Below are positions 10,719-63,721 of a DNA stretch of 64,000 nt, piece after piece. The stretch covers positions 124,001-188,000 of the IMG/VR virus record IMGVR_UViG_3300017971_000002. One strand, given 5' to 3'. The notes under the pieces were generated by a model. It was not told the DNA's origin and did no database searches. It saw only the letters and a program-made list of their open reading frames with translations. The DNA comes from a virus. How positions within the stretch are numbered: position 1 is the first letter of the stretch; every line of letters starts with the position of its first letter. Made by a program: the position numbers and the translations under genes.

Positions 10719-10721
10719 ACT

Positions 10722-10730: not shown

Positions 10731-10761
10731 TTAGGTAGAATGATCATTCAAGGAGATAATT

Positions 10762-13602: not shown

Positions 13603-13612
13603 GGATTGAATA

Positions 13613-31152: not shown

Positions 31153-31165
31153 TGTCGGAGTTCAA

Positions 31166-32086: not shown

Positions 32087-32087
32087 A

Positions 32088-35515: not shown

Positions 35516-35516
35516 T

Positions 35517-44043: not shown

Positions 44044-44280
44044 ATGGCAGACACATTTAAAGATTTCGTCAAAGAGGACAAAGAGGATATTAAGAAACTC
44101 GATAAGGCATGGACTGCTTTTGCAGAGCAAGCTGATACAATAGTTGGCGAACTTGAACTGGATAAGGATGAGGATCCTAATCTAAGATCAATTTATAAAA
44201 TAGTTGACAATAGCTGGGAGAAACTTCAAAAACAATTTGCTCAATTCAAGAAGGTTGTTGGTAGAATAAAATGGGAGTAG
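44044..44280 (+). CDS. Small helical protein, capsid-tag-like, paralog pair member 1
   Basis: The 78-residue protein begins MADTFKDFVKED and is helical, with WEKLQKQFAQFKKVVGRIKW at the end. It is a paralog of the following gene (shared MADTFK-[DE]-F and a C-terminal [QN]FKK). The tag ends in V-K-E, and cleavage there would fit a T4-like prohead protease. It has a late promoter and AAAGGAG before the ATG. Confidence 0.72.
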   Translation: MADTFKDFVKEDKEDIKKLDKAWTAFAEQADTIVGELELDKDEDPNLRSIYKIVDNSWEKLQKQFAQFKKVVGRIKWE

Positions 44281-44286: not shown

Positions 44287-44514
44287 ATGGCAGATACATT
44301 TAAAGAGTTTTTAGGTGAGAACAAACAAGAGGCTCAGGATTTTCAAAAGAAAGCAGATCCTCTAATTGATTTTATGGAGGACATACTTCCAGGATTCGAA
44401 ATGGCGTCAGAGGAAGATTCAAAAATGGTACGCCATTTTAAAGCAGCTAGTAAGGCTTATGATGATATTCAAAAAGGAATTATCAATTTCAAAAAGGCAC
44501 TACTGAAATACTAA
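44287..44514 (+). CDS. Small helical protein, capsid-tag-like, paralog pair member 2
   Basis: The 75-residue protein begins MADTFKEFLGENKQ and is helical throughout, ending GIINFKKALLKY. It is 6 bases after its paralog, so it probably arose by tandem duplication. The L-G-E stretch fits a prohead protease site better than in the first copy. No function is recognised; internal head protein is the favoured inference. Confidence 0.72.
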   Translation: MADTFKEFLGENKQEAQDFQKKADPLIDFMEDILPGFEMASEEDSKMVRHFKAASKAYDDIQKGIINFKKALLKY

Positions 44515-46241: not shown

Positions 46242-47533
46242 GAATAGTTGATATACTTGACGAACTGGAGAATACGGCCAGTAAGTTAGACAAGGAGGAG
46301 ATCCTTAGTGATAACGCCTCCAATAAGGTTCTTGTAAAGATTCTGAAGTGGACTTATAACAAACAACTGAACTTTTATGCCAAGCAGATTCCAGAACCCA
46401 CAGAGGTCGGAAAGAGGTCTATAGACAATCCTAAAGATTTTAAGGTTGTTGAGGATCTTTTATCCAGGCTATCTGCTAGGTCTGTTAGAGGTCATGATGC
46501 CTTAAATGAGATCGAGGTTTTACTAAACGGTTTTGATGAGGAGTCTCAGGAGATTATTGAGAACATACTTGGAAGGAATCTTAATGTTGGCATTTCTTCA
46601 TCTACAATAAACAAGGCCTTACCAAATACCATTCCGACATTTGATGTGGCGCTGGCTTATCCATATGATAAAAAGACAGCCAAGCATGTCACGTTTGATG
46701 GTTCTTGGTTGGTTAGCCGAAAGCTCGACGGTTGCAGATGTATAGTTATGAAGAAGGGTAACGGCTTCCTGTTCTTTTCAAGGAAGGGCAAACCTTTTTA
46801 TACACTTGATAACCTGATTCCAGAACTTCAGAAGTTACGCATTGGCGGAGACTTTGTCCTTGACGGAGAGATTTGTATAATGGATGAAAACGGCGATGAG
46901 GATTTTCAGTCGATCATGAAGCTGATAAGGAAGAAGGATTACACCATCGAGAACCCAATGTTCAAGGTATTTGATGTTCTCACTGAAGATGAATTTGATA
47001 ACAAGGCAGGCAATACAAATCTTAGTGCCAGACTTGCGACATTGAAGTCTGCCTTTAAGGGTAAGAGTTTCAAGACCATATCATTTCTTGAACAGGAAAA
47101 ACTCACAGAGAAGTCCTTTGCCAGATTACAGGATGAGTCTGCCAAGAAAGGATGGGAGGGTCTTATGCTCAGAAAGGATAGTGGATACAAGGGCAAGAGG
47201 TCTAATGATCTTCTTAAGGTCAAGAAGTTTTATGATGCCGAGTACAAGGTGCTTGACATTGAGACAGGACCTTTTCAGCATACAATCAAGGGTCAGGGTC
47301 AGGAGATCACCGAATGTATGACCAATGTCATAATAGAGCATAAAGGTGAGAGGGTTAGTGTTGGCTCAGGATTCACAATTGAACAGCGTGTGAATTGTTA
47401 TCACGATCCAAAACTGATAGTTGGTAAGATGATCACTGTTCAATATTTTGAGGAGTCAAGAAACAAAGAGGGTAAGGTCTCTCTAAGATTTCCGACTTGC
47501 AAATGGATACATGGCACAAAGAGAGAGGTCTAA
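46238..47533 (+). CDS. ATP-dependent DNA ligase (T4 gp30-like)
   Basis: The 431-residue enzyme has the adenylation motif I VSRKLDGCRCIV (nucleotidyl Lys about 161), motif III LDGEICIMD, motif IV WEGLMLRKD and motif V LLKVKKFYDAEY, followed by an OB-fold with VSVGSGFT and VSLRFPTCKWI. The helical N-terminus MRIVDILDELENTASK resembles T4 ligase (MILKILNEIAS). It joins nicks during replication and repair. Length is close to T4's 487 residues. Confidence 0.93.
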   Translation: MRIVDILDELENTASKLDKEEILSDNASNKVLVKILKWTYNKQLNFYAKQIPEPTEVGKRSIDNPKDFKVVEDLLSRLSARSVRGHDALNEIEVLLNGFDEESQEIIENILGRNLNVGISSSTINKALPNTIPTFDVALAYPYDKKTAKHVTFDGSWLVSRKLDGCRCIVMKKGNGFLFFSRKGKPFYTLDNLIPELQKLRIGGDFVLDGEICIMDENGDEDFQSIMKLIRKKDYTIENPMFKVFDVLTEDEFDNKAGNTNLSARLATLKSAFKGKSFKTISFLEQEKLTEKSFARLQDESAKKGWEGLMLRKDSGYKGKRSNDLLKVKKFYDAEYKVLDIETGPFQHTIKGQGQEITECMTNVIIEHKGERVSVGSGFTIEQRVNCYHDPKLIVGKMITVQYFEESRNKEGKVSLRFPTCKWIHGTKREV

Positions 47534-47925
47534 TGCCCAAATATACAATCATCTGTAAACGGATGTACATTGATCTGGTAGGTACCGATCTAAAGTTGGA
47601 GTCAAGCTCAATGACGGAGATTGCTGTCTGTTATAAGATAGATAAGGTGCCAAACATCATGTATAAAAAGAAGTTTCTTACATCCAGATTGGGTGATGTG
47701 CTTGAGGTCATCACTAAGAAGGAGAAGGCCTTGTTATTCAAGGACGATAAGGATCTTGGTGAGTTGGCAAAATTAAAGGTTAACCATTTTCCAGATTCCA
47801 TTCCAATCAACTGTATAAAGGAGCTCATCCATCTTACTAAGGCGGGCAAGGAGCTTAATGATAAATGGCAAGATGAGATCAAGATATTTAATAAAAAGTT
47901 TGATATGTTCAAGAAAAAGGTATGA
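47533..47925 (+). CDS. Unknown protein, tandem paralog 1 of 3
   Basis: The 130-residue protein is not recognised. The N-half is beta-predicted and the C-half has a short hydrophobic motif (LGELAKLKVNHFPDSIP, about 78-94) followed by helices ending FNKKFDMFKKKV. The same motif with the same spacing occurs in the next gene. The ATG overlaps the ligase stop codon (TAATG). Confidence 0.68.
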   Translation: MPKYTIICKRMYIDLVGTDLKLESSSMTEIAVCYKIDKVPNIMYKKKFLTSRLGDVLEVITKKEKALLFKDDKDLGELAKLKVNHFPDSIPINCIKELIHLTKAGKELNDKWQDEIKIFNKKFDMFKKKV

Positions 47926-48314
47926 ACAACAGAGAACAGGTATTCTGTAATAATCTATGGGTGGATATCACCTGTATAGATATGGTAAGACCGCCAAAGG
48001 ATAGTGATGTTGTCGGGTTTTATCTTCTTGCTGATTTTGGTGGTAAACATATTCAGTTGTTTGGTAGAAAGATTCATGTGAATGAATTGGAGATCGCCTT
48101 TAAGATAATATCTGACAAGGGTACCGCCCTGATAAATAAAGACAATACAACACTAGGCTTTCTCGCAAAATTAAAGATAGATATGTTTCCTGACATGACA
48201 CCAAAGAATCCAGGAAATATAATCATTAAATATATTAATGAGTCACGGGTGTTTAATGAGGTTCGTGATAACTTTAAAAAAGAGTTTGTCAGGTTCAAAA
48301 AGAAAATAAAATAA
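47922..48314 (+). CDS. Unknown protein, tandem paralog 2 of 3
   Basis: The 130-residue protein has the motif LGFLAKLKIDMFPDMTP (about 83-99) and ends FKKEFVRFKKKIK, matching its upstream neighbour in both parts. Overlap by ATGA couples the two. The N-terminal half differs more. No function is known. Confidence 0.68.
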   Translation: MNNREQVFCNNLWVDITCIDMVRPPKDSDVVGFYLLADFGGKHIQLFGRKIHVNELEIAFKIISDKGTALINKDNTTLGFLAKLKIDMFPDMTPKNPGNIIIKYINESRVFNEVRDNFKKEFVRFKKKIK

Positions 48315-50146: not shown

Positions 50147-50666
50147 GGAGAAGAAATTAATTAACGTTATAAAGAGTAGATTCCATGGCGTTAAGATGAA
50201 GCACGATAAAAGGGGAGAAATCATTCTCCCCTATATTGGTGGTACCAAGACTGCTGTCGAGTTTGTTATCTATGAAGATATGGTCAAAGTTTGGCGTCCT
50301 GGTAACAACACTATAGTCTGTTCTAATAACTACAACTCAGATGAACAGTACATACAGGCTGTCAAGAAGGCCATATATGAAAGTATAAAGATACTTCAGT
50401 TAAAGAAACAGAAGGCTGAGAGAGAGGAAAAGGTAAACAATATATTGTTAATAGAACTACAAGGTCTATTAGATGAGATGAAAATTGATCATGTAAAGAT
50501 ATCATCTACTGAATCATATGTTAGACTAAACTCCGGGACCCGAGCCTATAGTCAAAAGGGTTCAGATGGAAAGACTTTCTATGTGGCCGAAATGAAGTTG
50601 GCCTTTAACAAGGAAAGATTCAAGGAATTCCTTAAGTTTATAAAAGGAGGCAACAATGAAGTGTGA
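50136..50666 (+). CDS. Unknown protein with central coiled coil, similar plan to upstream gene
   Basis: The 176-residue protein has a basic N-domain (KSRFHGVKMKHDKRGEIILP), a coil (ILQLKKQKAEREEKVNNIL) and a C-domain with YVRLNSGTRAYSQ and FYVAEMKLAFNKERFKEFLK. The start overlaps the end of the previous gene; an ATG at 50118 is an alternative. No function is recognised. Confidence 0.6.
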   Translation: MKNREKKLINVIKSRFHGVKMKHDKRGEIILPYIGGTKTAVEFVIYEDMVKVWRPGNNTIVCSNNYNSDEQYIQAVKKAIYESIKILQLKKQKAEREEKVNNILLIELQGLLDEMKIDHVKISSTESYVRLNSGTRAYSQKGSDGKTFYVAEMKLAFNKERFKEFLKFIKGGNNEV

Positions 50667-51111
50667 GGTGGAATTCTTCGGTCTGGGTTATCATACAATC
50701 ATTGGCCAGAAAATCATTGGATGCAAACGTCAAAAAACACCATTTGGTTGGAGGGATGTTGCATCCCAAATCAAAGAGATTAAGAAAAGAAGGTATTATC
50801 TATATCTTCAGTTATCCAAGCAGATAACGAAACCTATTATTTTCTGGACGGGTGACTATAAGGCAAAATGGGCGATGGATAGGATAGAACAGATTCGGAC
50901 CAATCCTGCAAAGGCCCTTGTTCTTATGAGAGACCCGAAACAGATAAAGGCCATACGTGAGTTGGCCAATTACAAAGTTAAGTTTTTTGGTAATGCCGAT
51001 ATACCTATCAAAGCACTTACTGAGGAAGAGATTGATAGGTTTAGTGCTCAACACTGGAATGATAGACCAGCACTGTGTTATATGTTTGAGGACTCGTGGC
51101 GTAACAAGTAA
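50656..51111 (+). CDS. Unknown protein, last rightward gene
   Basis: The 151-residue protein is not recognised. It begins KCEVEFFGLGYHTIIGQKII and includes KPIIFWTGDYKAKWAMDRIE and LRELANYKVKFFGNADIP-like strands, possibly a Rossmann-like or receiver-like small domain. AAAAGGAGG lies before the ATG. Its TAA touches the stop codon of the convergent leftward gene, leaving no space for a terminator between them. Confidence 0.62.
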   Translation: MKCEVEFFGLGYHTIIGQKIIGCKRQKTPFGWRDVASQIKEIKKRRYYLYLQLSKQITKPIIFWTGDYKAKWAMDRIEQIRTNPAKALVLMRDPKQIKAIRELANYKVKFFGNADIPIKALTEEEIDRFSAQHWNDRPALCYMFEDSWRNK

Positions 51112-51450
51112 TCAGACGTCCTCGACACCACAAATAACACCATCAATTTTCCCCTTAAAAGTAGATTGAATCCTATAGAGGAACAAGGCGAGGGCCCTAG
51201 GGAACTCGTCCTTTGACTTCATGGCCAATAGGAGTTGTCCACCATCCATCAAAAGATTATTAAGATGGCCTTCCAGGTGCTTTACAAATTTGTTCATGTA
51301 GAACTTTTTATGAAGTATCTTTGGAATAGGATAATTCTTTTTGACCTGTATTCCTCTCTCCTGAATTTGGACAATTGATACATTGGTCAGTATACTCTCT
51401 TCGGGATTTCCTGAGCATTTCAGGAATGTAAATATGATCTTGTTATTCAT
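51112..51450 (-). CDS. LFLKG-family member 26, divergent, last gene of the array
   Basis: The 112-residue protein keeps the family layout in a worn form: HLNNLLMDGG in place of the core, then LLLAMKSKDEFPRALALFLY as strand and second helix, then STFKGK. The N-terminal 60 residues are beta-rich. It is the only array gene with a late promoter and a hairpin leader in front. The ATG with AGAGGTGG is chosen over a GTG 6 bases upstream. Confidence 0.6.
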   Translation of the reverse strand: MNNKIIFTFLKCSGNPEESILTNVSIVQIQERGIQVKKNYPIPKILHKKFYMNKFVKHLEGHLNNLLMDGGQLLLAMKSKDEFPRALALFLYRIQSTFKGKIDGVICGVEDV

Positions 51451-51470: not shown

Positions 51471-51494
51471 GGGGCGCCGTAGCGCCCCTTTTTT
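51471..51494 (+). terminator. Strong rho-independent terminator (rightward) beyond a convergent gene
   Basis: A perfect 7-base-pair GC stem GGGGCGC/GCGCCCC with loop CGTA is followed by six T. It fits rightward termination, although it lies 360 bases past the last rightward gene and beyond the whole convergent leftward gene. In leftward transcripts the same hairpin would sit near the 5' end. Confidence 0.8.
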
Positions 51495-51495
51495 C

Positions 51496-51503
51496 TATTT
51501 ATA
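51496..51503 (-). promoter_or_regulatory. Leftward T4-type late promoter TATAAATA
   Basis: On the minus strand CTATAAATAG precedes AAAAAA and the GC hairpin, 46 bases upstream of the last array gene. It is the only exact leftward TATAAATA seen in the array. Confidence 0.6.
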
Positions 51504-51563: not shown

Positions 51564-51965
51564 TTAGAAAGAATCGCATTTATGAACTTCATTTACAGGT
51601 TCTTCGTTGTTATATCCAAAATGATTGAACCAGACCGACTGTTTTATGCAGAGATTTGAGTCAGGTTCGATGGTAAATCGTATCTCATCTGTTGAGACGG
51701 ATACCTCTTCATGCTCCACGACAATTTGAAAATCTGACCTCATCACATTATGTGCTGGCAATAATCTGGAGTTCTCTGTCTTTTCTGAGACCAATCCGTT
51801 CATGGTGATTCCAAAAAACCAGAATGTACCAACCAATATACCTATCGCAACAGGTTCCCCTGCATCAGTTAAAATAGAGATAAGTAATGCTAGAGCAATA
51901 AACGCAAGTATACCGAGTCCCCAACCGATGAAGTACCCTAGTATGAAATACTCACCTACAAACAT
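51564..51965 (-). CDS. Membrane protein, tandem trio member 3
   Basis: The 133-residue protein starts MFVGEYFILGYFIGWGLGIL with two hydrophobic segments (about 1-30 and 36-60), then a beta-rich soluble domain ending DSNLCIKQSVWFNHFGYNNE and CDSF. Both ends match the next gene upstream. CGAAAGGAGAACAGG before the ATG fixes the start; an upstream in-frame start is unlikely. It probably sits in the inner membrane with a cytosolic C-domain. Function unknown. Confidence 0.72.
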   Translation of the reverse strand: MFVGEYFILGYFIGWGLGILAFIALALLISILTDAGEPVAIGILVGTFWFFGITMNGLVSEKTENSRLLPAHNVMRSDFQIVVEHEEVSVSTDEIRFTIEPDSNLCIKQSVWFNHFGYNNEEPVNEVHKCDSF

Positions 51966-52377
51966 CCTGTTCTCCTTTCGTCCATTCCTCCGGACATTTA
52001 ATGACATTGTACTTTGGTTTTTTATTTGTATATCCCCAATATGTATAATCAAGACTACTTTCAATACAGAATGAACTATCATGCAAATCGACAAACGCCA
52101 TGTCAACCGTTCCGACGACTATACCTTTCTTCTCTACGTAAATATTATGTTTGGTTCTCCATACGTTCTCACCCTCCAGTAACCGAGTTGCCCTTCTATT
52201 ATCTTCAGTCGACCAAACTATAAAGATTACAAGCGTAACAAGAAATGAGAGCACCACAAATAAGGAAAGATTGTCAGAGTCGAATAGAAGTCCGAAAATA
52301 AATAGAATACCCTCAAAACAAAATATGGCTCCAAAGGTAAAAAAGAATCCAATTGCAAAAAACTCACCGACGAACAT
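51952..52377 (-). CDS. Membrane protein, tandem trio member 2
   Basis: The 141-residue protein begins MFVGEFFAIGFFFTFGAIFC, very like its downstream neighbour, with two hydrophobic segments and a soluble domain containing DSSFCIESSLDYTYWGYTNK. GGAGGCGAATA precedes the ATG, which overlaps the previous stop (TAATG). The similarity in both parts shows a duplication. Confidence 0.72.
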   Translation of the reverse strand: MFVGEFFAIGFFFTFGAIFCFEGILFIFGLLFDSDNLSLFVVLSFLVTLVIFIVWSTEDNRRATRLLEGENVWRTKHNIYVEKKGIVVGTVDMAFVDLHDSSFCIESSLDYTYWGYTNKKPKYNVIKCPEEWTKGEQDVCR

Positions 52378-52772
52378 TATTCGCCTCCAAATACATCGCA
52401 AAAGACAACTGTTTTCTCATCTATCGTATTTACGCCAAGGGGACTATAGGCCTTACGATGTTTGATACATAACAATGAATCTGGTTCGTCTTTAAATTTC
52501 ATCTCGATTGTTCTAACAAATTTGTCATCCGTATCCCTAAGCATTATGGCTGTCTGAGACCTTACGATCTCTACTGGATAATAAACCCTATGTATCTTGT
52601 GATGATTAGATACTATCCCAATGATAGTGCAAAAGGCTATTGTTACAAGACTTAATGCAAAAAAGACATCAGATAATGACTTATTGTTTCGTGTCAAGAA
52701 TGACACTAAAAATAAAAAGGCAGCAATAATAGTAACCCATGCTATGAACCCCGGAACTATAAATGAAAACAT
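52377..52772 (-). CDS. Membrane protein, tandem trio member 1
   Basis: The 131-residue protein has two hydrophobic segments (about 3-25 and 38-55) and a C-domain with DSLLCIKHRKAYSPLGVNTI and VFCDVFGG. The C-domain matches the next two genes, while the N-terminus has diverged. AAAGGAAATTGAA precedes the ATG. A 134-base gap containing inverted repeats lies upstream. Confidence 0.7.
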   Translation of the reverse strand: MFSFIVPGFIAWVTIIAAFLFLVSFLTRNNKSLSDVFFALSLVTIAFCTIIGIVSNHHKIHRVYYPVEIVRSQTAIMLRDTDDKFVRTIEMKFKDEPDSLLCIKHRKAYSPLGVNTIDEKTVVFCDVFGGE

Positions 52773-52804
52773 TTCAATTTCCTTTCATCTAAATGGTTGT
52801 TTTA

Positions 52805-52850
52805 GGGAAGGGATTATTAGTGAGGATGTATTGACGTATAATCTCTTCCC
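52805..52850. repeat. Inverted repeat in a non-coding gap of the array
   Basis: GGGAAGGGATTAT and ATAATCTCTTCCC form a 13-base-pair stem with one mismatch and a 20-base loop. Further right, GGGTCC and GGACCC form a smaller hairpin (about 52877-52897). Neither is followed by a T-run on the minus strand. A leader structure or protein-binding site in front of the membrane trio is possible. Confidence 0.5.
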
Positions 52851-52906
52851 TTGGTTGCCTGGCGGCGTAACCGATGGGTCCGTGGGCATGGGACCCTCAT
52901 ATGTAG

Positions 52907-53128
52907 TTATAATTCTAATAGTTTCTTCAAACCCTCCACAAGGTCTTTATCTTCAATACTAAATATGTGAGTTCCTGACATGAATCCGTTAAATGAGACG
53001 GCATTACATAAAAGTTGTCCAAGTCTAGAGTCTGGATGTTTTTTCCAAACTTGATATAACAGACTAATTATTTCTGGAATTCTATTTGGGTCTCTCATCT
53101 TTTTTAATCCTGGTTTAACTTTCCACAT
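52907..53128 (-). CDS. Small conserved phage/bacterial protein (RDPxRI...RLGQL type)
   Basis: The 73-residue protein has the pattern KMRDPNRIPEIISLLYQVWK, PDSRLGQLLCNAV, IEDKDLVEGLKKLL. I recall small uncharacterised bacterial and phage proteins with this R-x-P-x-R-I ... RLGQL ... [ED]D-x-L layout; no function is known to me. The start could instead be the Met of MRDPNRI. It is not related to the surrounding array family. Confidence 0.65.
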   Translation of the reverse strand: MWKVKPGLKKMRDPNRIPEIISLLYQVWKKHPDSRLGQLLCNAVSFNGFMSGTHIFSIEDKDLVEGLKKLLEL

Positions 53129-53134
53129 CTCTTG

Positions 53135-53329
53135 TTACCATAAGTAAATTCTATTTCGTATATCCCTGTACCAGTCAAGAATAAAATTCATACCACCTGT
53201 CTTCCAGAATATGTAAGTACAGAATAATGTACTTATAGCATTAAGCGTTGATAATGTTGTTAAAAAGATCAGGCAATTTAATAGACCAAGAGACCCCATG
53301 AACAATCCGTAAATTAGTAAAATGGTCAT
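53135..53329 (-). CDS. Small membrane protein
   Basis: The 64-residue protein has two hydrophobic segments (MTILLIYGLFMGSLGLLNCL and about 25-45) and a basic end (DWYRDIRNRIYLW). AAAGGAACTTGA precedes the ATG, which overlaps the upstream stop (ATGA). It is one of several tiny membrane proteins scattered through the array. Confidence 0.6.
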   Translation of the reverse strand: MTILLIYGLFMGSLGLLNCLIFLTTLSTLNAISTLFCTYIFWKTGGMNFILDWYRDIRNRIYLW

Positions 53330-53601
53330 TCAAGTTCCTTTGTCAAATTCTCTGCACCCGCCACATTATTTCTTATTAAAAAAGACCTGAATGTCTTATA
53401 CCTTTTCTCGTTATCAAGAACAAAATTACAAAACACACCATCCGTTGATCTACTTCCAATAAAGTATGGCATCTGATGAAGAAAGAATAATTTGTTAAAC
53501 TTATCAATGTGATCATTTGGTATGAATGTATGTAACTTGCACACAGTCTTGCCTGAATCAACCTGATACGTCCTTATTTCAAGTATCTGGCTCACAAACA
53601 T
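53326..53601 (-). CDS. LFLKG-family member 25
   Basis: The 91-residue protein has the core DKFNKLFFLHQM (about 33-44), then VFCNFVLDNEKRYKTFRSFL as strand and second helix. K-G of the core is replaced by H-Q. The ATG after AGAGGAAAG is preferred over an earlier in-frame start inside the upstream gene. Confidence 0.7.
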   Translation of the reverse strand: MFVSQILEIRTYQVDSGKTVCKLHTFIPNDHIDKFNKLFFLHQMPYFIGSRSTDGVFCNFVLDNEKRYKTFRSFLIRNNVAGAENLTKELE

Positions 53602-54100
53602 TGTCCACTTTCCTCTTACCGTACTTCCATTTCTCAAGTCTTATATTTCCATCTGTTAAATGCCTTAAAACTTTCAAGTGCTTTTTTGACTTTATGGTCA
53701 CAGAGAATCTCTCAAATCCTCCCGCGGTATCAGTTAGTGGTCTATCAAATTCGATACCTGCTATAAAGCACATCTTCTTAAAGTTATCCAAATTTCTTTG
53801 TGTATCATCCCCGTCTATAGTTAGTGCTTTGATTAGTTCATGATCCACCCACTGACTACCAATTTTAACTTTGAATGTACATTCAATCTCATAGAGACCA
53901 TTCACCACCTTGTCAAGTCTCTTTATGTTTCTAAACTCTTTTAACTTTTCCTTACTTGTTATCGCTTGGATGAACATACTAAGGAAGGTCTTTTTCTCTT
54001 TAGGTTTAGTCAATTCATCGAAACGGCTATTCAGCATACTATGTATAGTTTTAAACAGTTTAGCTTGTGCGACGTCTGTTGGATTTATTTGCTTTTTCAT
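53579..54100 (-). CDS. LFLKG-family member 24, N-terminally extended
   Basis: At 173 residues it is the longest member. The first 60 residues are a helical addition (AKLFKTIHSMLNSRFDELTK), followed by a beta region and the core DNFKKMCFIAGIEFDRP (about 109-125), then FSVTIKSKKHLKVLRHLTDG. CGGAGAATAC precedes the ATG. The helical extension is unique among the members here. Confidence 0.75.
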   Translation of the reverse strand: MKKQINPTDVAQAKLFKTIHSMLNSRFDELTKPKEKKTFLSMFIQAITSKEKLKEFRNIKRLDKVVNGLYEIECTFKVKIGSQWVDHELIKALTIDGDDTQRNLDNFKKMCFIAGIEFDRPLTDTAGGFERFSVTIKSKKHLKVLRHLTDGNIRLEKWKYGKRKVDNVCEPDT

Positions 54101-54377
54101 GTATTCTCCGTAGATATCGTTTGAATATTGGTGAACTCATTATCATACCTTCCGTTGTCCCGAGCCAATCCGCAAGACATCTAATTATCCTTTCGTACTT
54201 CTCCTCCGTGTTCACAGTGCATTTTATCTCTACAGAATACGAACCCTTCGGCTTGGTGTGTTTTATACCGGCAACAAATAACAACCGAAGAACCTTATCG
54301 ACTTCTTCCTCGTCAGCGATCTCTATTACCATCTTGAACTTTTCAGGATCAAGTGCCTTCAGTTTCACACTGCCCAT
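54060..54377 (-). CDS. LFLKG-family member 23
   Basis: The 105-residue protein reads VIEIADEEEVDKVLRLLFVA then GIKH (core about 24-37) and SYSVEIKCTVNTEEKYERII. The core runs as L-L-F-V-A-G-I-K. The C-terminus is basic with no PxW motif. The ATG with CGGAGTATT is chosen over a TTG 18 bases upstream. Confidence 0.75.
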   Translation of the reverse strand: MGSVKLKALDPEKFKMVIEIADEEEVDKVLRLLFVAGIKHTKPKGSYSVEIKCTVNTEEKYERIIRCLADWLGTTEGMIMSSPIFKRYLRRIHEKANKSNRRRTS

Positions 54378-54684
54378 AATACTCCGTTGCTTCAAGTTGA
54401 TGTTTTATATGCTTTAGTTCTTTCTTTATATGATTGTTTCTAAGAGTTCCCCATGTCTTTGTGCTAACATACTTCCTTATTAGATATATCAACCTCTGAT
54501 AGTCTTTGAGGGTCTTCAGATACACACGAATTACCTCATTCGTTGATCCCATCTCTATAATCTCAAAATCAATTGCGGAGATTAATAATAGACCAGATAT
54601 CTTTCCTTGAGGCGCCAGAAGTACGACCTCATTAGTGTTCGGCCACACCGAAGAAATACTAACTATGTCTTTTTTCTCTGTCAT
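54349..54684 (-). CDS. LFLKG-family member 22
   Basis: The 111-residue protein has GKISGLLLISAIDF (about 27-40) in place of the core and RVYLKTLKDYQRLIYLIRKY as strand and second helix. K-G of the core is S-A, as in the next upstream member, so these two are probably closest relatives. The C-terminus is a charged helix. Confidence 0.72.
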   Translation of the reverse strand: MTEKKDIVSISSVWPNTNEVVLLAPQGKISGLLLISAIDFEIIEMGSTNEVIRVYLKTLKDYQRLIYLIRKYVSTKTWGTLRNNHIKKELKHIKHQLEATEYYGQCETEGT

Positions 54685-54937
54685 GATTGACCGGAAACAT
54701 AAAATGCTCGTTAAGTACATCAGTAGGGCGAACTACAAATGGAAGTATCCCTTTATTTAGATCAATATTTAGTATGTCCACAAACCTATTCAATTGTTTC
54801 TTTGTGTTTAGTATTACAGTTATCCTATCCTGACTCATGTTATGCTCAATGGCCGACAGTAGAAACAATTTTGAGGCCTTCTCAAAATGTATTCCGTACC
54901 ACAGCGAGACCTGTATAGGATATTTGTTTTCTTCCAT
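54659..54937 (-). CDS. LFLKG-family member 21
   Basis: The 92-residue protein has EKASKLFLLSAIEH (about 19-32) and RITVILNTKKQLNRFVDILN. It has a short N-terminal part of only 18 residues before the core. TTTAGGAAT precedes the ATG. A consensus-like sigma70 promoter ends just before the ribosome site. Confidence 0.75.
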   Translation of the reverse strand: MEENKYPIQVSLWYGIHFEKASKLFLLSAIEHNMSQDRITVILNTKKQLNRFVDILNIDLNKGILPFVVRPTDVLNEHFMFPVNHDREKRHS

Positions 54938-54944
54938 ATTCCTA

Positions 54945-54973
54945 AATATAGAAAAGAACTGATTGTTTGTCAA
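54945..54973 (-). promoter_or_regulatory. Leftward sigma70 promoter TTGACA-N17-TATATT
   Basis: A perfect -35 box (54973 to 54968) and TATATT (54950 to 54945) with the ideal 17-base spacer fill the small gap between two array genes. The start site would fall almost on the ATG, so the message would be leaderless or nearly so for the first gene. Confidence 0.65.
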
Positions 54974-54976
54974 CAA

Positions 54977-55279
54977 TTAAATTTCACCTATTCTTTGAAT
55001 CATTCTATCAATGTCTGATTTCTGAATCTCCCTTGTTACCCTAACTGATGTATATCTTTTACCGTATGCTTTTAGAATGAATTTAACGAAGGCTGCTCGA
55101 TGACTTTTTGGAAATCTCACAAAGAAATATCCTCCGTCATTATTTATTATTTTATATCCTCTTAGAAATAAAAGGTTCTGCACCTTCTCATCCTTAATCA
55201 ACCAGGCACCTTTTCCATCGCCTGAGAATATGAACTTGCCCACACCCGAACCCTTATTCTTTAATAACAATGTAAGCAT
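54977..55279 (-). CDS. LFLKG-family member 20
   Basis: The 100-residue protein is a clear member: DEKVQNLLFLRGYKI (about 30-44), GGYFFVRFPKSHRAAFVKFI then LKAYGKRY, and a terminal helix SDIDRMIQRIGEI. It shares a tight junction with the unrelated 341-residue gene upstream. No good ribosome site is visible, which suggests translational coupling. Confidence 0.8.
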   Translation of the reverse strand: MLTLLLKNKGSGVGKFIFSGDGKGAWLIKDEKVQNLLFLRGYKIINNDGGYFFVRFPKSHRAAFVKFILKAYGKRYTSVRVTREIQKSDIDRMIQRIGEI

Positions 55280-55281
55280 GT

Positions 55282-56307
55282 CTAGATCACATATTTACTA
55301 TAATGTTTATCAATTTCCTGGGCGTTGTGAGGGAAACGTCTTTTCATCTCATCGAACACTGTTCTAGGAATCGCCACATCCTCGTCCTTTGAGAAAGGTA
55401 TGATACGAAAATACATATTCCATAATCTAATCTCTGATGACTTTCTTGTTACACCTTTATAGTCTTTATATGACTCCCTATCTTTAAGAATAGCATTCTC
55501 CAGAAACCTTTTAAAGACTCCCTCACGAATGTCCTTTGGATTTGGTTTTATTTTACCTTTTTTACATTCTATAAATGAACTACTTGATTTTAGAACCATT
55601 TCCTCTATGTTATCGGACGTAGGACTCTTCAGATTTCTTAATCTTGTAACATCAGAGTTGGATCTCCATTTGTCAAGAAACACCTTGGCAGATTTACTAT
55701 TGACAACTCCCTTTAGATTGAAGCCGCCATCTCTTCCTGAGCTTGGTGTATACATCATATTTCTATCCCAAATTCTCTCGACTTTTGCACGGAGGATCTT
55801 CCAGTTTCCTAGATACAATTCCTCCTTTCCAGATCGCATGACATATGTATTTCCTGGTGACATCTGAGTGAATGGGATAAACTTGGCAACTGAACGTTTG
55901 GAGTCTAACAATGCCTTTTCATACATCGTTCCATGATCGGGTATTAGTCCTATACTATGATCCATGCAGAAAACAAGATCGCCCATAACAATTCCACCTT
56001 TATGTATACCATTGGTTTGCATAATCTCAAGTAGATGTCTATCACGAAGATCCATGATGTACTTATCATTTACCAATACCTTAAACACAGTATTAGATTT
56101 TCTATGATTATAGTCAATAACTTTCACATTATTGGTGACGCCATGTATATCCACAATGGGTCCTGGTTTATTTGATCGATATTGAGTAGCCCACCATTTG
56201 GCACTCTTTAATGCCTTTGTGTTGCCCTTCTCAATAGGATACGCATGCATGGTACCATCCTTCTCTGGTTTTCTGCACACCATTGTAATATTCTGAATAA
56301 GTTTCAT
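55282..56307 (-). CDS. Unknown 341-residue protein embedded in the array
   Basis: This protein does not have the array motif and is not recognised. The N-half is beta-rich with VNDKYIMDLRDRHLLEIMQT and IHKGGIVMGDLVFCMDHSIG, perhaps an OB or SH3-like domain. The C-half is helical and Arg/Lys-rich (KWRSNSDVTRLRNLKSPTSD). AAAGGAAAGAAATC precedes the ATG. It overlaps an LFLKG member upstream by 4 bases and is 2 bases from the next, so it belongs to the same operon. Confidence 0.7.
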   Translation of the reverse strand: MKLIQNITMVCRKPEKDGTMHAYPIEKGNTKALKSAKWWATQYRSNKPGPIVDIHGVTNNVKVIDYNHRKSNTVFKVLVNDKYIMDLRDRHLLEIMQTNGIHKGGIVMGDLVFCMDHSIGLIPDHGTMYEKALLDSKRSVAKFIPFTQMSPGNTYVMRSGKEELYLGNWKILRAKVERIWDRNMMYTPSSGRDGGFNLKGVVNSKSAKVFLDKWRSNSDVTRLRNLKSPTSDNIEEMVLKSSSSFIECKKGKIKPNPKDIREGVFKRFLENAILKDRESYKDYKGVTRKSSEIRLWNMYFRIIPFSKDEDVAIPRTVFDEMKRRFPHNAQEIDKHYSKYVI

Positions 56308-56633
56308 GATTTCTTTCCTTTCTTTTTGTTTAATTCTTTAAATGCTTCGGCGAACATCTGATGATCATAGGTTATTTCAACCACGGGATCTCCTACTAAT
56401 TTGACCATACTCGCAATTAGATCAAAATCTTTCTTGGTCTTACATCTCACAAGACCTCTATCGGTACTAAACAAACCGGGTGCGTTTTCTACATTCACTC
56501 CCTTTAGAAATAAGAGTTTTTTTAATTTATCTCCAGATACATATATTGGTAGATGATCCTTTTTAAATTCAAATGACTTTTCCTCAGAAATACCATCATG
56601 CGAATGTATTGTTACGAATACTCTATCTACCAT
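56304..56633 (-). CDS. LFLKG-family member 19
   Basis: The 109-residue protein has the textbook core GDKLKKLLFLKGVNV (about 34-48), then GLVRCKTKKDFDLIASMVKL and VVEITYDHQMFAEAF. The N-terminal 30 residues form strands. The end is Lys-rich (KELNKKKGKKS). Confidence 0.8.
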   Translation of the reverse strand: MVDRVFVTIHSHDGISEEKSFEFKKDHLPIYVSGDKLKKLLFLKGVNVENAPGLFSTDRGLVRCKTKKDFDLIASMVKLVGDPVVEITYDHQMFAEAFKELNKKKGKKS

Positions 56634-56986
56634 GTTATCTCTCTTATAAGTGCCTGTCTAATTTTTGATAAATCCTTTGGAGTATTCTTGTATACCAAAT
56701 TCCATATGTATAGAAACTGATTGATCTCCATGGGGGTTTTGGCCACTATGAAATAACCTCCCTCTTTGTTTTGATATAGTTCTTGTTTCTTTCTTAGAAA
56801 TAGTAGATCAACTAATTTCGGATGGGTGATTTTTATTCTTGCTCCAATCCGTCTTTTTTCTATTTCTATCGCTTCATTGTCATTTAAAAAATAATAAGGC
56901 TTAGTCATTATTTCACCATATAGATTTATTTTTATCGAGAGAGTGCCTCGTTTTGGTCTATGTTTTTTTAGGAAAGATTTTATCAA
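56627..56986 (-). CDS. LFLKG-family member 18
   Basis: The product has up to 119 residues. Its core is HPKLVDLLFLRKKQELYQ, then GGYFIVAKTPMEINQFLYIW and VYKNTPKDLSKIRQALI. The start is either a TTG after CGGAGAAC (used here) or an ATG 78 bases downstream with a poor ribosome site. With the TTG, the N-terminus is basic and overlaps the neighbour by 29 bases. Confidence 0.72.
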   Translation of the reverse strand: MIKSFLKKHRPKRGTLSIKINLYGEIMTKPYYFLNDNEAIEIEKRRIGARIKITHPKLVDLLFLRKKQELYQNKEGGYFIVAKTPMEINQFLYIWNLVYKNTPKDLSKIRQALIREITW

Positions 56987-57263
56987 CTGCGTTCTCCGGT
57001 CTAAATCTTATCTGTCTAAGGTTGGGTGTCGATGCGGCCAATACATCACACGCCTTCTTTAACTGACTTCTGGATTGTATGTATATTCTATCGATCTTAA
57101 CATCAAACCCAGCAAGTAATAGATGGTCCTGTGTTCGTCTACCTAAGTATGGCGGCAGTTTGAAGATCAGACCAAGTTCTGGAGTCCATGCTGTCTCTAT
57201 CTGATGATTGGAATATCCTAATATTCCACGTTCATATACAAATATAAATTCAATTCTTTTCAT
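56958..57263 (-). CDS. LFLKG-family member 17
   Basis: The protein has about 101 residues. The core is divergent, RRTQDHLLLAGFDVK (about 42-56), with a very short connector to RIYIQSRSQLKKACDVLAAS. The N-terminus alternates strands (FIFVYERGILGYSNH). Starts at 57269 or a TTG at 57290 are also possible, because no clear ribosome site was found. Confidence 0.7.
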   Translation of the reverse strand: MKRIEFIFVYERGILGYSNHQIETAWTPELGLIFKLPPYLGRRTQDHLLLAGFDVKIDRIYIQSRSQLKKACDVLAASTPNLRQIRFRPENAVDKIFPKKT

Positions 57264-57570
57264 AGACATCAAAATCAAATTTCTGACCAAGATACATAGA
57301 CCCTGTGTATATGATCGGTCTACCCTTGAACGCCAACATCAAGGCCTCACGAAAGTCCTTGATCTGATCCTCTGTTATGTATACATTTGTCAAAAACTTT
57401 CCCCTATCTTCAAACGTTTTTATTCCTTTAAGAAATACCAATCTCTTTAGTGTATCATCACTAAATTCTAGATTTATCCAAGGTCCATAATCCGTGACCC
57501 TTACATCTGTTAAATATACACCCTCAAGTGTCCAATCATCATCCTTGAGATTCATTCCAATCTCAAACAT
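57250..57570 (-). CDS. LFLKG-family member 16
   Basis: The 106-residue product has DDTLKRLVFLKGIKTFED (about 38-55), FLTNVYITEDQIKDFREALM and a LAFKGRPIIYTGS end. The ATG with CGAAAGGAAGAGGA is preferred; an ATGATG at 57597/57594 that overlaps the previous stop would add nine residues. Confidence 0.78.
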   Translation of the reverse strand: MFEIGMNLKDDDWTLEGVYLTDVRVTDYGPWINLEFSDDTLKRLVFLKGIKTFEDRGKFLTNVYITEDQIKDFREALMLAFKGRPIIYTGSMYLGQKFDFDVYEKN

Positions 57571-57593
57571 TCCTCTTCCTTTCGCTGGTAACA

Positions 57594-58007
57594 TCATTTA
57601 GTCGGACAAGAATATGTTATCTGAAATCTTTGTGTTCCTCTATAGATCATACATATGACCTCAACAAATTTATCAAAATCTTCCGATGTATGTATATGGA
57701 CTAGATAATGGCCGGGATATTTGCTTGGTAGAGCAATGCCACGAAGGAAAGCGATTCTATAAAACGCCGAGTCTTTATTGAATCCAAAGTATATTAATCC
57801 GCCCGCTCCTGCTTTATCTAAGGGATATACATCGGTTCTAGGAAAATATTCATCTCCATATCTATAATGATCTTTTCCATTAAAACTAGAACTGGTATGT
57901 ACATACTCGACCTTAAGTCTGCCGCTAATAAGAGGTATATCAGAACCTTTTAACACTCGAAAAATAGCCACTTCATCGTCTCCTGTACAATATTTGTCTG
58001 TTAGCAT
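57594..58007 (-). CDS. LFLKG-family member 15, long N-terminus
   Basis: The 137-residue protein has a long N-terminal region containing an aromatic and glycine-rich stretch (YRYGDEYFPRTD, DKAGAGGLIYFGF), then the core DSAFYRIAFLRGIALP (about 79-94) and HYLVHIHTSEDFDKFVEVIC, then MIYRGTQRF. An internal sigma70-type promoter lies 57 bases upstream, within the preceding gene. Confidence 0.78.
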   Translation of the reverse strand: MLTDKYCTGDDEVAIFRVLKGSDIPLISGRLKVEYVHTSSSFNGKDHYRYGDEYFPRTDVYPLDKAGAGGLIYFGFNKDSAFYRIAFLRGIALPSKYPGHYLVHIHTSEDFDKFVEVICMIYRGTQRFQITYSCPTK

Positions 58008-58317
58008 AATCTATCAATCTTATAGATTTACTTTCCTTGTAAATTAAGAAGATACACTTTAAAAATATATTCAATTGTTCCCATGTTGTCAAGTAGAATT
58101 TGTAATGACCATGTCCATACTTATCATGTTTCTCGTATTTGATCTTACCTGGCGATAAAAACAATAACCTTGCAAGGGAGTCTCCCCACTTTCCACCAAT
58201 TATGATCTCCTTAGAACCCTGGGCAGAATCTTTACATTCAAGATACGATGATGCATCATGTTCGTATCCTATACCCATCTGCGTCAACCCTAGCCAGGGC
58301 ATCTTACCTATTTTCAT
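57973..58317 (-). CDS. LFLKG-family member 14
   Basis: The 114-residue protein has GDSLARLLFLSPGKIKYEK (core about 45-57; K-G is S-P-G), then HYKFYLTTWEQLNIFLKCIF and LIYKESKSIRLI. The codons of its second helix also spell a promoter for the following gene. It overlaps both neighbours. Confidence 0.78.
   Translation of the reverse strand: MKIGKMPWLGLTQMGIGYEHDASSYLECKDSAQGSKEIIIGGKWGDSLARLLFLSPGKIKYEKHDKYGHGHYKFYLTTWEQLNIFLKCIFLIYKESKSIRLIDYANRQILYRRR
58064..58092 (-). promoter_or_regulatory. Leftward sigma70 promoter TTGACA-N17-TATATT inside a gene
   Basis: TTGACA (58092 to 58087) and TATATT (58069 to 58064) have a 17-base spacer. It lies within the coding region of member 14 and would give a leader of about 50 bases for member 15. 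It has the same boxes and spacing as the promoter at 54945. Confidence 0.6.
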
Positions 58318-58741
58318 TCGTTAGTTTCTCGAACTTGTTTATTAACCATGATTCAGAATCTTCATCAATATAAATTATCATGTCCTTGTATTTATGAAAT
58401 ATCACTTTTATAAGTTCATAAATCTTTTCCTTTGTATGTATCTGCTTAGTCTTGAATAGATTATTGTCTGTCCAGGTAGTCGCCGTTTGCGCGACCGATG
58501 TTGAAACGAAAAAAGGTCGGGGTCCACGTTCCAGCACATCATAGTTCACGTTCTTTAGAAACACCAACTTACCAAGTTCCGCACACTCAAAATACATCAG
58601 ATATTTATTATGAATATTTCGAGAGAATATGATCTTCTCATAATGTACCGCCTCAATTAGACCCTCAATTCGATTATGTATAACGAATCCGCCGATGTAT
58701 GTTCCCTCAATCGTACCAATTAATTCGTCCTTCATAAACAT
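58304..58741 (-). CDS. LFLKG-family member 13, with insertion and W-motif end
   Basis: The 145-residue protein has the core CAELGKLVFLKNVNYDV (about 53-69), an insertion of about 25 residues (VAQTATTWTDNNLFKTK), then the second helix TKEKIYELIKVIFHKYK. It ends with ESWLINKF, a form of the C-terminal tryptophan motif seen in several members further right. Confidence 0.78.
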   Translation of the reverse strand: MFMKDELIGTIEGTYIGGFVIHNRIEGLIEAVHYEKIIFSRNIHNKYLMYFECAELGKLVFLKNVNYDVLERGPRPFFVSTSVAQTATTWTDNNLFKTKQIHTKEKIYELIKVIFHKYKDMIIYIDEDSESWLINKFEKLTNENR

Positions 58742-59103
58742 TGCTGTACCTTTTTTATTTCTCTATAAAATGTGTTCACAAACTTAGTTCCCCAATCGGG
58801 AATGTTAGTTGATCTACTTATGTTTGCTTTAATATTTCTCCACAGAAAGACAACCTCTTTAATAAGTTGATGTACTTTAGGATTACTTAGACCCTCCACT
58901 ACCCAAGCATTAGTATCTTGATCAAATTGAATGTTATAACCTTTTAGTAACAATACACGACTAAGACCTTCTATATTAAACCAGACACTATATCTATCGT
59001 TGCAGATTCTAAATATATCAATAAATTCAGTACGATTTAGATGAAAATGTATTATATTTCCATCGTTAAGCATTTCTTGCAATAGTTGATAATTTCCTAT
59101 CAT
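58732..59103 (-). CDS. LFLKG-family member 12
   Basis: The 123-residue product has NIEGLSRVLLLKGYNIQF (about 43-60), AWVVEGLSNPKVHQLIKEVV and the end motif NIPDWGTKFVNTF. AAAGGACATTATTAC precedes the ATG, which overlaps the previous stop as ATGA; a GTG 21 bases upstream is less likely. Confidence 0.8.
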   Translation of the reverse strand: MIGNYQLLQEMLNDGNIIHFHLNRTEFIDIFRICNDRYSVWFNIEGLSRVLLLKGYNIQFDQDTNAWVVEGLSNPKVHQLIKEVVFLWRNIKANISRSTNIPDWGTKFVNTFYREIKKVQQCL

Positions 59104-59465
59104 GTAATAATGTCCTTTATCCACTCAGGTGTGTCGGAACAGACGGCTATCTTTTTTGTCCTGAGAACGAACCCCAACATTCCTAATATCTTCTTCAGCT
59201 CATGCTTTCTCAATCGTCCCATGTACCACCACAAGTCGTCCCCAACATATTTTGTGGTCTCGCACAACCTCATCCTGGGTCGAAGACCCTTAAGGAGCAG
59301 AATTCCCGATAGACCAGCCATCTCGGGCGTGAACCATAGATCATAGTAACCACCCAGTCGCCTAAACACTGTCGCAACGTGTCCTCCAATTATTCCCTTG
59401 TCATGGAGGGACACTTCCCAGATATCCTTAGATTCCAACGACCCCATCGTGTCCGTCATCCGCAT
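59100..59465 (-). CDS. LFLKG-family member 11
   Basis: The 121-residue protein has PEMAGLSGILLLKGLRPR (about 47-64), an aromatic connector (DDLWWYMGRL), the helix KHELKKILGMLGFVLRTK and the end motif SDTPEWIKDIIT. Its region has visibly higher GC content than neighbouring members. Confidence 0.8.
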   Translation of the reverse strand: MRMTDTMGSLESKDIWEVSLHDKGIIGGHVATVFRRLGGYYDLWFTPEMAGLSGILLLKGLRPRMRLCETTKYVGDDLWWYMGRLRKHELKKILGMLGFVLRTKKIAVCSDTPEWIKDIIT

Positions 59466-59818
59466 TTTACCAGCTCCACAAACCAGGGCGGAACGCCCTC
59501 AACAAAATGTATATCATCGCAGTGCTTTCTTACAAACTCAGCAACTGTGCAAAGACCAATGAATGAAATCACGAACTGAGGGAGTTTGTTAGTTCGTTTT
59601 CTCTCTTTAAAACCGCCAAGTAAAACCAGCTTACCTATCTTCTCGGAGTTTACTGTCATTATAAAGTCTCCTGCATTAATGTCTCTAAATGCTACATAAC
59701 TGATCTTTTCATTCTCTTGAAAGAACACTGCCCAACATGCGTCCCTGAGAGGATCCATTCTTAGAAACATATAGTCAGCGATTATTCGATCACTGTTTAT
59801 TTCATTAGGGTTAATCAT
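59456..59818 (-). CDS. LFLKG-family member 10
   Basis: The 120-residue protein has NSEKIGKLVLLGGFKERK (about 57-74), FVISFIGLCTVAEFVRKHCD and the end motif GVPPWFVELVKCG. The core K-G is G-G. It overlaps its neighbours by 4 and 10 bases. Confidence 0.8.
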   Translation of the reverse strand: MINPNEINSDRIIADYMFLRMDPLRDACWAVFFQENEKISYVAFRDINAGDFIMTVNSEKIGKLVLLGGFKERKRTNKLPQFVISFIGLCTVAEFVRKHCDDIHFVEGVPPWFVELVKCG

Positions 59819-60156
59819 AACATCGCCCTTCTATAGTCAAAATCAAACCCCACAAAACCAAGATCCCTATTAAGTTTCCTCGGGAAGTCCTGATGCTGTG
59901 CTACATATGTACCCCTAAATGCCATTCTAATACATGGTATCACCATCCTCTTGAACTCCTTGTATGTGCGAAACCTTCGGGTGCAATGCTTTCCAGGGGT
60001 ATAGTAATCGTTTGTGTTGTTTATCTTCTGTATACCTCTAAGAAATATCAACCTGTCGATCCTTTCAGATGTGTATGACAACCGCCATCCAAGAAAGGTG
60101 TCCCTATCGAAGCAGACAAATCCATCATTTGTATGTAATATATATGTCTTTCTCAT
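59815..60156 (-). CDS. LFLKG-family member 9, lacks W-motif
   Basis: The 113-residue protein has an early core, TSERIDRLIFLRGIQKIN (about 29-46), then a Tyr/His-rich connector, RRFRTYKEFKRMVIPCIRMA and FRGTYVAQHQDF. The C-terminus is different from its neighbours, with no PxW. One base is shared with the upstream stop. Confidence 0.78.
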   Translation of the reverse strand: MRKTYILHTNDGFVCFDRDTFLGWRLSYTSERIDRLIFLRGIQKINNTNDYYTPGKHCTRRFRTYKEFKRMVIPCIRMAFRGTYVAQHQDFPRKLNRDLGFVGFDFDYRRAML

Positions 60157-60524
60157 TATATGTTATCCACGAGATGTGGGTTTAATGCAAGTAGATCCCT
60201 CTTTATCCATTGTGCAGTGTGATTGTTCATAGCCAAACCTTTATCTATCATTATCATGTCCTTGATTAGAAGTTCCACCATCCACCAGTCCACATAGTAA
60301 AGCGGGTCATTATAGGAACCCCTACCAAATATCTTGTATCCTTTTAGAAATATCAATCTGTTCGCCCTCTCATGTTCTTCAGGAACACTTATTAAAAACT
60401 TCTTTCTAAATCTTCGAACCAATAGACAGAAGTCACGAAACAAGTTCATGTGTTTTCTAGAATGTAATCCGAGAATAAATCCAATCTCATTAACAGACTT
60501 ATCTCCATTGAAAAAATCACTCAA
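60156..60524 (-). CDS. LFLKG-family member 8
   Basis: The 122-residue protein has HERANRLIFLKGYKIFGRG (about 51-69), DPLYYVDWWMVELLIKDMIM and the end HTAQWIKRDLL. The N-terminus holds a helix rich in Arg (LVRRFRKKFLISV). It overlaps the next gene upstream by 4 bases. Confidence 0.82.
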   Translation of the reverse strand: MSDFFNGDKSVNEIGFILGLHSRKHMNLFRDFCLLVRRFRKKFLISVPEEHERANRLIFLKGYKIFGRGSYNDPLYYVDWWMVELLIKDMIMIDKGLAMNNHTAQWIKRDLLALNPHLVDNI

Positions 60525-60871
60525 TATTCAATCTCCAATAATTTGTATATCCATTTTGGTGTGTCTGAACAAGGATGCATATTCATCGTATCATAAGAAG
60601 CCTTATACATTTTGAGAACATTAATAAGATCCTTCTTAGTTATGTATCTAAGACAGTAAATATGACCATTTTCCTTATCCTCTAAATTTGCCCAATTATC
60701 ATCTAATCTCTTTAGAAATAGTAGTTTATGAAGTTTCTCAGAATCGTGCCATACATTATAGTAAGATCCAATTCGTACAATGTAGACCCCACACTCTGTA
60801 GAATGTATAGCCCAGATTCGTTTTGAACCAAATGTTTGATCATAGTATTGTAATGAATGTTTAAATTTCAT
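60521..60871 (-). CDS. LFLKG-family member 7
   Basis: The 116-residue protein has DSEKLHKLLFLKRLDDN (about 43-59), a connector, IYCLRYITKKDLINVLKMYK and the end motif SDTPKWIYKLLEIEY. SDTP-x-W-I is shared almost exactly with member 11 four genes away, which points to duplication and shuffling. Confidence 0.82.
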   Translation of the reverse strand: MKFKHSLQYYDQTFGSKRIWAIHSTECGVYIVRIGSYYNVWHDSEKLHKLLFLKRLDDNWANLEDKENGHIYCLRYITKKDLINVLKMYKASYDTMNMHPCSDTPKWIYKLLEIEY

Positions 60872-61266
60872 TCTATCCCCGTCACCAGTAACGCTCCAGG
60901 AAATCTGGTTGTACTTCTACAATATACATCAAGTTTCTTTGACCATGTATGTTCAAGATAAAGTTCAAGAATTTCCCATAATGCTTTTGTATCTATCCGA
61001 TACAATATTCCATTCTGTAGAAATTCTTTGTTCTCAAACCTTATGTTCTTTAGAAAGATTAATTTTTCAAATGTCTCCTCATAGATACATATGTAAATAT
61101 GTTCGTATATTTTTACCTTCACATCAACCGTTAAAAAGAAAGTCGGATTACGGGAGTTTCCAAATGTCCATATATCCTTAACTGGCTTTTTTGTGCCCCT
61201 AACAAGTTTACACGTTCTATCTTCCCGATGTTGTTCCATGTCCACGGGCCTTATTTTAAAACTCAT
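60868..61266 (-). CDS. LFLKG-family member 6
   Basis: The 132-residue protein has a basic N-terminus, a strand pair (FFLTVDVKVKIYEHIYICIY), the core EETFEKLIFLKNIRFEN (about 63-79), LYRIDTKALWEILELYLEHT and a C-terminus without PxW (RFPGALLVTG). Confidence 0.8.
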   Translation of the reverse strand: MSFKIRPVDMEQHREDRTCKLVRGTKKPVKDIWTFGNSRNPTFFLTVDVKVKIYEHIYICIYEETFEKLIFLKNIRFENKEFLQNGILYRIDTKALWEILELYLEHTWSKKLDVYCRSTTRFPGALLVTGIE

Positions 61267-61618
61267 ATATTGACCCCAGTATCTTTAAAAACCACCATTT
61301 GCCTTCCTCATGAAAATTAGGTACACGATTATGATTTATTCTAAATAACTCTTTGAGAATCATGAAAATCTGTTCAAATGTGACAATGTAGTTTGGATCC
61401 TGATCCTCATCATAATCAAACACCCTAAACCCCTTTAGAAACATGATCTTATTCATTGATTCACAATTCCTATTAATACACATTAGCCATTGTTCTTTCC
61501 ATTTCTTGACAAGTATTTCATGCCCGTAATCATATTCTATGAGTTCCCTTCTTTCATAATAGATACCAAATAGAATATCTGTACAATCACGATCAGACCA
61601 ATATTCGTATTCACCCAT
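61256..61618 (-). CDS. LFLKG-family member 5
   Basis: The 120-residue protein has an acidic N-terminus, then CESMNKIMFLKGFRVFDYD (about 52-70), YIVTFEQIFMILKELFRINH and the end EEGKWWFLKILGSI. TAAGGATGTATT precedes the ATG, which lies within the end of the SemiSWEET-like gene. Confidence 0.8.
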   Translation of the reverse strand: MGEYEYWSDRDCTDILFGIYYERRELIEYDYGHEILVKKWKEQWLMCINRNCESMNKIMFLKGFRVFDYDEDQDPNYIVTFEQIFMILKELFRINHNRVPNFHEEGKWWFLKILGSIYEF

Positions 61619-62260: not shown

Positions 62261-62290
62261 CCATTTACAAGTTCATCGTTCCAGCGTTTC

Positions 62291-62491: not shown

Positions 62492-62511
62492 CTTATCTCC
62501 TTTCAATTGAC

Positions 62512-63678: not shown

Positions 63679-63721
63679 CAAAACTTCTCTCTTTCGACTG
63701 TTATCTCTATGCCTCGTGACA

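Follow-up and report, generated by a model that had tools for sequence, protein, structure and literature searches.

Three tandem orphan genes for small membrane proteins with a conserved tail in a divergent T4-type phage: possible accessory proteins of a leftward, probably early operon

Three adjacent small genes of a large phage each encode a protein with two hydrophobic segments near the N-terminus and a similar tail, and they raise the question of what such a set could do for the virus that carries it. The genes lie in a stretch of 64,000 nucleotides, referred to here as the window, which corresponds to bases 124001-188000 of a 202,503-base virus record. Positions are those of the window unless stated otherwise. 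The genes are transcribed in the order C, B, A:

52377-52772, minus strand: copy C, open reading frame of 131 aa, first transcribed
51952-52377, minus strand: copy B, 141 aa, ATG at 52377 and stop at 51952, protein starting MFVGEFF
51564-51965, minus strand: copy A, 133 aa, ATG at 51965 and stop at 51564, last transcribed, protein starting MFVGEYF

The three are real genes. All of the frames are intact, and a Shine-Dalgarno-like sequence precedes each copy (AAAGGAA for C, GGAGG for B, and AAAGGAG for A). The stop of C and the start of B have one base in common, and B and A overlap by 14 nt. An initial annotation had described three adjacent genes at 51564-52772 with two N-terminal hydrophobic segments each, two of them beginning MFVGE[YF]F, and the reading frames, the hydropathy maxima and the starts of A and B bear this out.

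By sequence comparison the three copies are paralogs, with similarity far above chance. A tblastn search of the whole 202.5-kb record with copy A finds B at E 1.0e-14, C at E 4.8e-8 and no others, and a profile of all three copies finds only these three in the whole record at E<=10, with no fourth copy. When residues are shuffled over the full length, the A-B and A-C scores exceed all 2000 shuffles, and the weaker B-C score is reached by 3 of 2000. When only the tails are compared, the A-B, A-C and B-C scores are reached by 0, 0 and 2 of 5000 shuffles, and for the membrane parts the corresponding numbers are 0, 50 and 4784. With 4784 of 5000 shuffles scoring as high, the membrane parts of C and B have no detectable similarity, in agreement with the initial annotation that the membrane part of the first copy, here the first one transcribed, has diverged. 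Overall the copies have diverged to about 30% identity while the tail motif has been kept.

The conserved feature of the trio is its tail of about 75 residues. The possibility that the C-domains are unrelated had been raised beforehand; judged by sequence, the tails can be aligned and 13 positions are invariant, among them those of D-S-x-x-C-I and of a second shared Cys. The motif reads DEPDSLLCIK in C, DLHDSSFCIE in B, and IEPDSNLCIK in A. The consensus first proposed, [DE]xx[DS]Sx[LF]CI[KE], fits B and C, whereas A departs from it with Ile at the first position, and in six frames of the whole window the consensus occurs twice, both times in the trio (B and C). The Gly of G[YV][NT], which had been placed ten to twelve residues further on, is found exactly 11 residues past the motif Cys in all three copies. 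The common cysteines are at 102 and 125 in C, 104 and 128 in B, and 106 and 130 in A. The second of each pair is the final Cys of the earlier description, which is shared as described but is followed in B by one more at 140. Elsewhere in the window and the next 14.5 kb of the record the trio domain is absent, as the best ORF outside the trio has E 1 with the full profile and E 0.25 with the tail.

In the collections searched, some of which may omit records very near the window's own, the trio is an orphan family. The statement that no known family is recognised holds up, since nothing convincing is found in Pfam, PHROGs, NCBIfam or PADLOC and no relative is found in the collections scanned. 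The Pfam search was run for A, B and C at E<=5, a limit at which the HMMER filters remove most matches above about 0.1. Matches below the cut-off to ABC2_membrane_3, Peptidase_U4, CcmD and FliW in Pfam and NCBIfam were rejected as hydrophobic-segment or chance matches. The viral contigs contain no relative in single-protein scans with A and B or in alignment scans with the whole trio and with the tail alone, and two scans of genome contigs give none. Searching 50,697 phage records by tblastn with each copy also yields no relative. The weak matches were set aside as chance: one to a Serratia phage at E 0.6, which falls within a 1238-residue protein, one to Acinetobacter at E 1, over 37 residues of an unnamed ORF, and one to a 735-kb phage at E 4, over 28 residues. 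The trio profile finds nothing in 35 records of terminase relatives, made up of 31 of 80 viral loci and four phage records, the other 49 loci, mostly short contigs, being omitted. A PDB sequence search with the trio gives no relative (best E 0.26), and Rfam has no match in the whole window at gathering thresholds. A word search of the literature finds nothing on such a trio, although words cannot retrieve a sequence. Descent of the tail as a relic of the neighbouring 'FLKG' family, which is described below, was also rejected, with a profile comparison probability of only 0.1%.

Judged by its terminase, the source phage belongs to the T4-type myoviruses but is divergent, and the collections searched contain no close relative of it. 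Among the best matches listed, the terminase is 36-39% identical to those of T4-type myoviruses, and its best relative among viral contigs, encoded on a contig of 12.8 kb, reaches 49% identity across a portion of the protein. The structural genes of the window are on the plus strand, and from about 51 kb genes are on the minus strand. G-C skew changes from positive to negative at about 51 kb, where the gene strand switches. Between the tail genes and the rest, at 24445-38136 on the plus strand, translations judged by eye include glycosyltransferase-, methyltransferase- and sugar-epimerase-like ORFs. Around the trio the following features are found:

52907-63922, minus strand: upstream body of the same-strand run, in which small genes are closely packed and mostly overlap; the majority are 'FLKG' paralogs
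52773-52906, minus strand: spacer of 134 nt from the operon body to the trio; it contains a GGGTCC stem and a strong hairpin of 7 + 6 pairs
51496-51503, minus strand: late promoter TATAAATA, the sole minus-strand one in the window, downstream of the trio and 45 nt before gene Z
51471-51488, plus strand: hairpin rich in G+C with T6 after it, resembling a terminator for the rightward transcripts that converge on the trio
51112-51450, minus strand: gene Z, 112 aa, downstream neighbour of the trio with its own late promoter and no family

The distribution of late promoters suggests when the trio is transcribed. In the window, 18 copies of the T4-type late-promoter motif TATAAATA compare with an expectation of 5.7, and 0 of 100 shuffles reach 18; 17 of the copies are on the plus strand and 1 on the minus strand. 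Twelve of the 17 plus-strand motifs sit 20-60 nt ahead of an ATG in an ORF that is at least 60 aa long, compared with 1079 of 5000 random positions, and the 14.5 kb to the right of the window has no such motif. Since the late promoters are on the plus strand, except for the one past the trio that serves gene Z, we infer that the trio is most likely early or middle, as the distal part of a long leftward operon of small genes. In the available part of PMC1524935, which deals with five T4-like phages, late promoters are reported only before orthologs of T4 late genes, and novel ORFs appear to be co-expressed with early genes.

From 63922 down to 52907, the minus-strand genes are separated by only two gaps of at least 25 nt (30 and 40 nt). 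The 134-nt spacer that follows folds with -34.1 kcal/mol (z -3.2), and 1 of 200 shuffles is as good. Because this stable hairpin parts the trio from the upstream genes, the trio could form a unit of its own; the hairpin is without a U-run and is therefore not a typical terminator. The hairpin at 51471-51488 is located where late rightward transcripts would otherwise enter the trio antisense.

Hydropathy and charge suggest that the tail faces the cytosol in at least two of the copies. The hydrophobic segments (19-residue hydropathy maxima) are at 13-31 and 41-59 in A, 13-31 and 37-55 in B, and 5-23 and 36-54 in C, and topology was assigned by applying the positive-inside rule to the sequence. 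The loop of A and of B is free of K/R and the 20 residues past segment 2 contain 3-4, so that their N- and C-termini are probably in the cytosol and the tail is predicted to be cytosolic. Copy C deviates from this pattern and gives an ambiguous signal, with 2 K/R in the loop and 3 after segment 2. In a cytosolic tail the two common cysteines would sit in a reducing environment.

An AlphaFold2 model of A built from the three sequences has two long helices followed by four strands, with a mean pLDDT of 55.8 and a pTM of 0.26, the helices being of moderate confidence and the tail below that. The best match of this model in a viral structure library has E 0.15, and the best Z against PDB structures is 5.5 for the helices and 4.8, to PUR repeats, for the strands. 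With this pLDDT and pTM the fold searches are not interpretable, and absence from their match lists rules out no fold. CBASS Cap15-type effectors, which are encoded beside a CD-NTase, have N-terminal membrane segments and then a beta-rich (beta-barrel) domain, an order that the trio may share according to the low-confidence model of A. The trio tail differs in being smaller than that of Cap15, and none of the PADLOC matches of the trio is named Cap15.

The preferred reading, which has about an even chance of being right, is that the trio is a lineage-specific accessory membrane family, tandem-duplicated, at the end of a leftward operon that is probably early, in a divergent phage of the T4 type. 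The broad version, in which these are orphan early or middle accessory inner-membrane proteins from tandem duplication, is fairly well supported. Expression of the three proteins would be joint, early or middle, and probably at similar levels, and each protein would insert into the inner membrane of the host as a hairpin of helices, both termini lying in the cytosol. The small beta-rich tail would bind a target at the membrane, and the three copies may pair with one another or specialise for variants of one target. Their most likely role would be a dispensable one directed at the host or a competitor. Candidates are altering an inner-membrane function of the host, countering defence, and excluding a second phage, and not virion assembly or lysis. 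A large share of the uncharacterised functions in host takeover and exclusion comes from orphan membrane proteins that phages encode in accessory, probably early regions. The trio offers a small set of such genes that lends itself to experiment, and its conserved tail is well delimited. Should it turn out to block related phages or a host defence, it would represent a protein family new to that task. Taken alone, it joins the many small gene families of phages that have no explanation.

Counter-defence or host takeover is a tentative possibility. The tail would bind a host membrane-linked defence or transport complex, and the duplicates would be variants against variable targets. An accessory, paralog-rich region that is probably transcribed early is consistent with this, as are copies that have diverged so far and kept the tail motif. 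However, there is no convincing match to an anti-phage-defence family in the trio. PADLOC gives only Csx27, an accessory membrane protein of type VI-B systems, which resembles the membrane part of copy C (E 0.0025, residues 1-76 against positions 9-82 of the 206 in the profile). Neither A nor B matches Csx27 and the tail of C lies outside the matched part, and membership of copy C in this family was rejected because the match covers the membrane part only, in one copy of three, and is not full-length.

Superinfection exclusion is rather unlikely, with a likelihood comparable to that of counter-defence or host takeover, and we regard these two as equally probable. Inner-membrane proteins made soon after infection would act like T4 Imm, blocking or destabilising the site through which the DNA of a second, related phage enters. 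Imm has two membrane segments and acts against DNA injection by a second phage, and its small size and the suspected early timing are common to the trio. Small two-segment membrane proteins in an early-looking region are circumstantial evidence for exclusion, and tandem divergent copies would suit an arms race between related phages. The available parts of PMC11436027 and PMC7677548 present T4 Imm and Spackle as exclusion factors, which counts in the same direction. In contrast to Imm, the trio has a conserved tail of about 75 residues and three copies, and it has no match to the Imm profile. This family (PF14373, Imm_superinfect) is not among the Pfam matches of A, B and C at E<=5, and a search of the whole record at E<=10 does not find it; in that search 9 of 14 control genomes have a match, none above the cut-off. 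Spackle (Sp) is an early gene product, and superinfection exclusion is the hypothesised role that it would share with the trio. In the available part of PMC7677548 it is a periplasmic inhibitor of gp5 lysozyme, whereas the trio is membrane-anchored and its tail is probably cytosolic. The trio has no relatives in the collections searched that would point to exclusion, a reading that is favoured by none of the tests.

Another reading, in which the products of the three overlapping genes are the subunits of a single membrane complex, is quite improbable. The complex would have a cytosolic beta domain of a kind not seen before (the CI motif and the Cys pair) and would be a multi-subunit exclusion or counter-defence device unlike T4 Imm. 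Holin-like or lysis-control proteins that make inner-membrane lesions are the least probable, as small size, two membrane segments and a match of copy B to Phage_holin_3_6 (12.0 bits) would fit, but that match is far under the cut-off of 28.4 and covers hydrophobic segments only, A and C have no holin match, and the trio has three copies, the conserved tail and no late promoter.

The neighbouring 'FLKG' array is more striking than the trio itself. It is a paralog array with the core LLFLKG, consisting of about 31 orphans, most of 95-145 aa, in roughly 21 kb:

54060-63681, minus strand: 'FLKG' array in the window
343-10990 of the next 14.5 kb (own numbering), both strands: 'FLKG' array beyond the window

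An iterated profile collects 31 ORFs with E<1e-3, of which 22 are in the window and 9 in the next 14.5 kb; it started from 14 hand-picked seeds, and its E-values refer to a small ORF set and can be inflated by iteration. Independent blastp pairs go down to E 1.8e-10. The family has no consistent Pfam or PHROG match, no PDB sequence match of note, and no relative in viral contigs or phage records. AlphaFold2 gives a good model of one member (pLDDT 79.0, pTM 0.73) from 23 window sequences, which are 22 of the 31 and one picked by eye, and the order of elements is b-b-b-a-b-b-a-b-a. Compared with PDB structures, it ranks highest with two entries of the C-terminal domain of T4 MotA, namely 5jlt_C (77 aligned of 110, rmsd 3.4, Z 4.5) and 1kaf_A (Z 4.3), with Z-scores only just above those of unrelated kinases (4.2). 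Plain Foldseek against the PDB has MotA at row 47 (E 0.85), and the viral structure library has MotA of an Acinetobacter phage at row 5 (E 0.085). According to the available part of PMC2988021, the DNA-binding domain of MotA consists of six strands with three helices among them, and the model has the same count of helices and strands. Sequence searches lend the resemblance to MotA no support, and MotCF has no match in the record. As a lead from the model, the array is possibly a mass expansion of small DNA-binding proteins with a MotA-like 'double wing' fold.

Other small genes are found within and around the array. At 61611-61862 on the minus strand, inside it, is an 83-aa PQ-loop protein (PF04193, 30.7 bits, cut-off 22), which we take to be a SemiSWEET-like half transporter, in a phage. 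Small hydrophobic ORFs of the array at 53135-53329, 62291-62506 and 63722-63922, all on the minus strand, show no relationship to the trio, with E-values of 4 or worse against its profile.

Because further tandem pairs and a trio are present, tandem duplication can be regarded as widespread in the source phage. Their blastp E-values are 1e-8, 3e-7, and 2e-18 to 1e-10. Tandem paralog pairs are found on the plus strand of the window at 47497-47925 and 47922-48314 and at 44044-44280 and 44287-44514, and further tandem paralogs include 7543-8256 (plus strand, own numbering) in the next 14.5 kb. A second orphan paralog family, with starts like M-x-x-x-VEFFG, has three copies (blastp E 6e-9 to 7e-29), and two rightward genes beyond the window have a common leader, TATGATAACTTAGGATTCTGGAA, which is a candidate early-promoter element of the phage:

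50656-51111, plus strand: M-x-x-x-VEFFG family, copy in the window
13213-13659 and 13676-14107 of the next 14.5 kb (own numbering), plus strand: M-x-x-x-VEFFG family, other two copies
about 6435-6457 and 6734-6756 of the next 14.5 kb (own numbering), plus strand: TATGATAACTTAGGATTCTGGAA before two rightward genes
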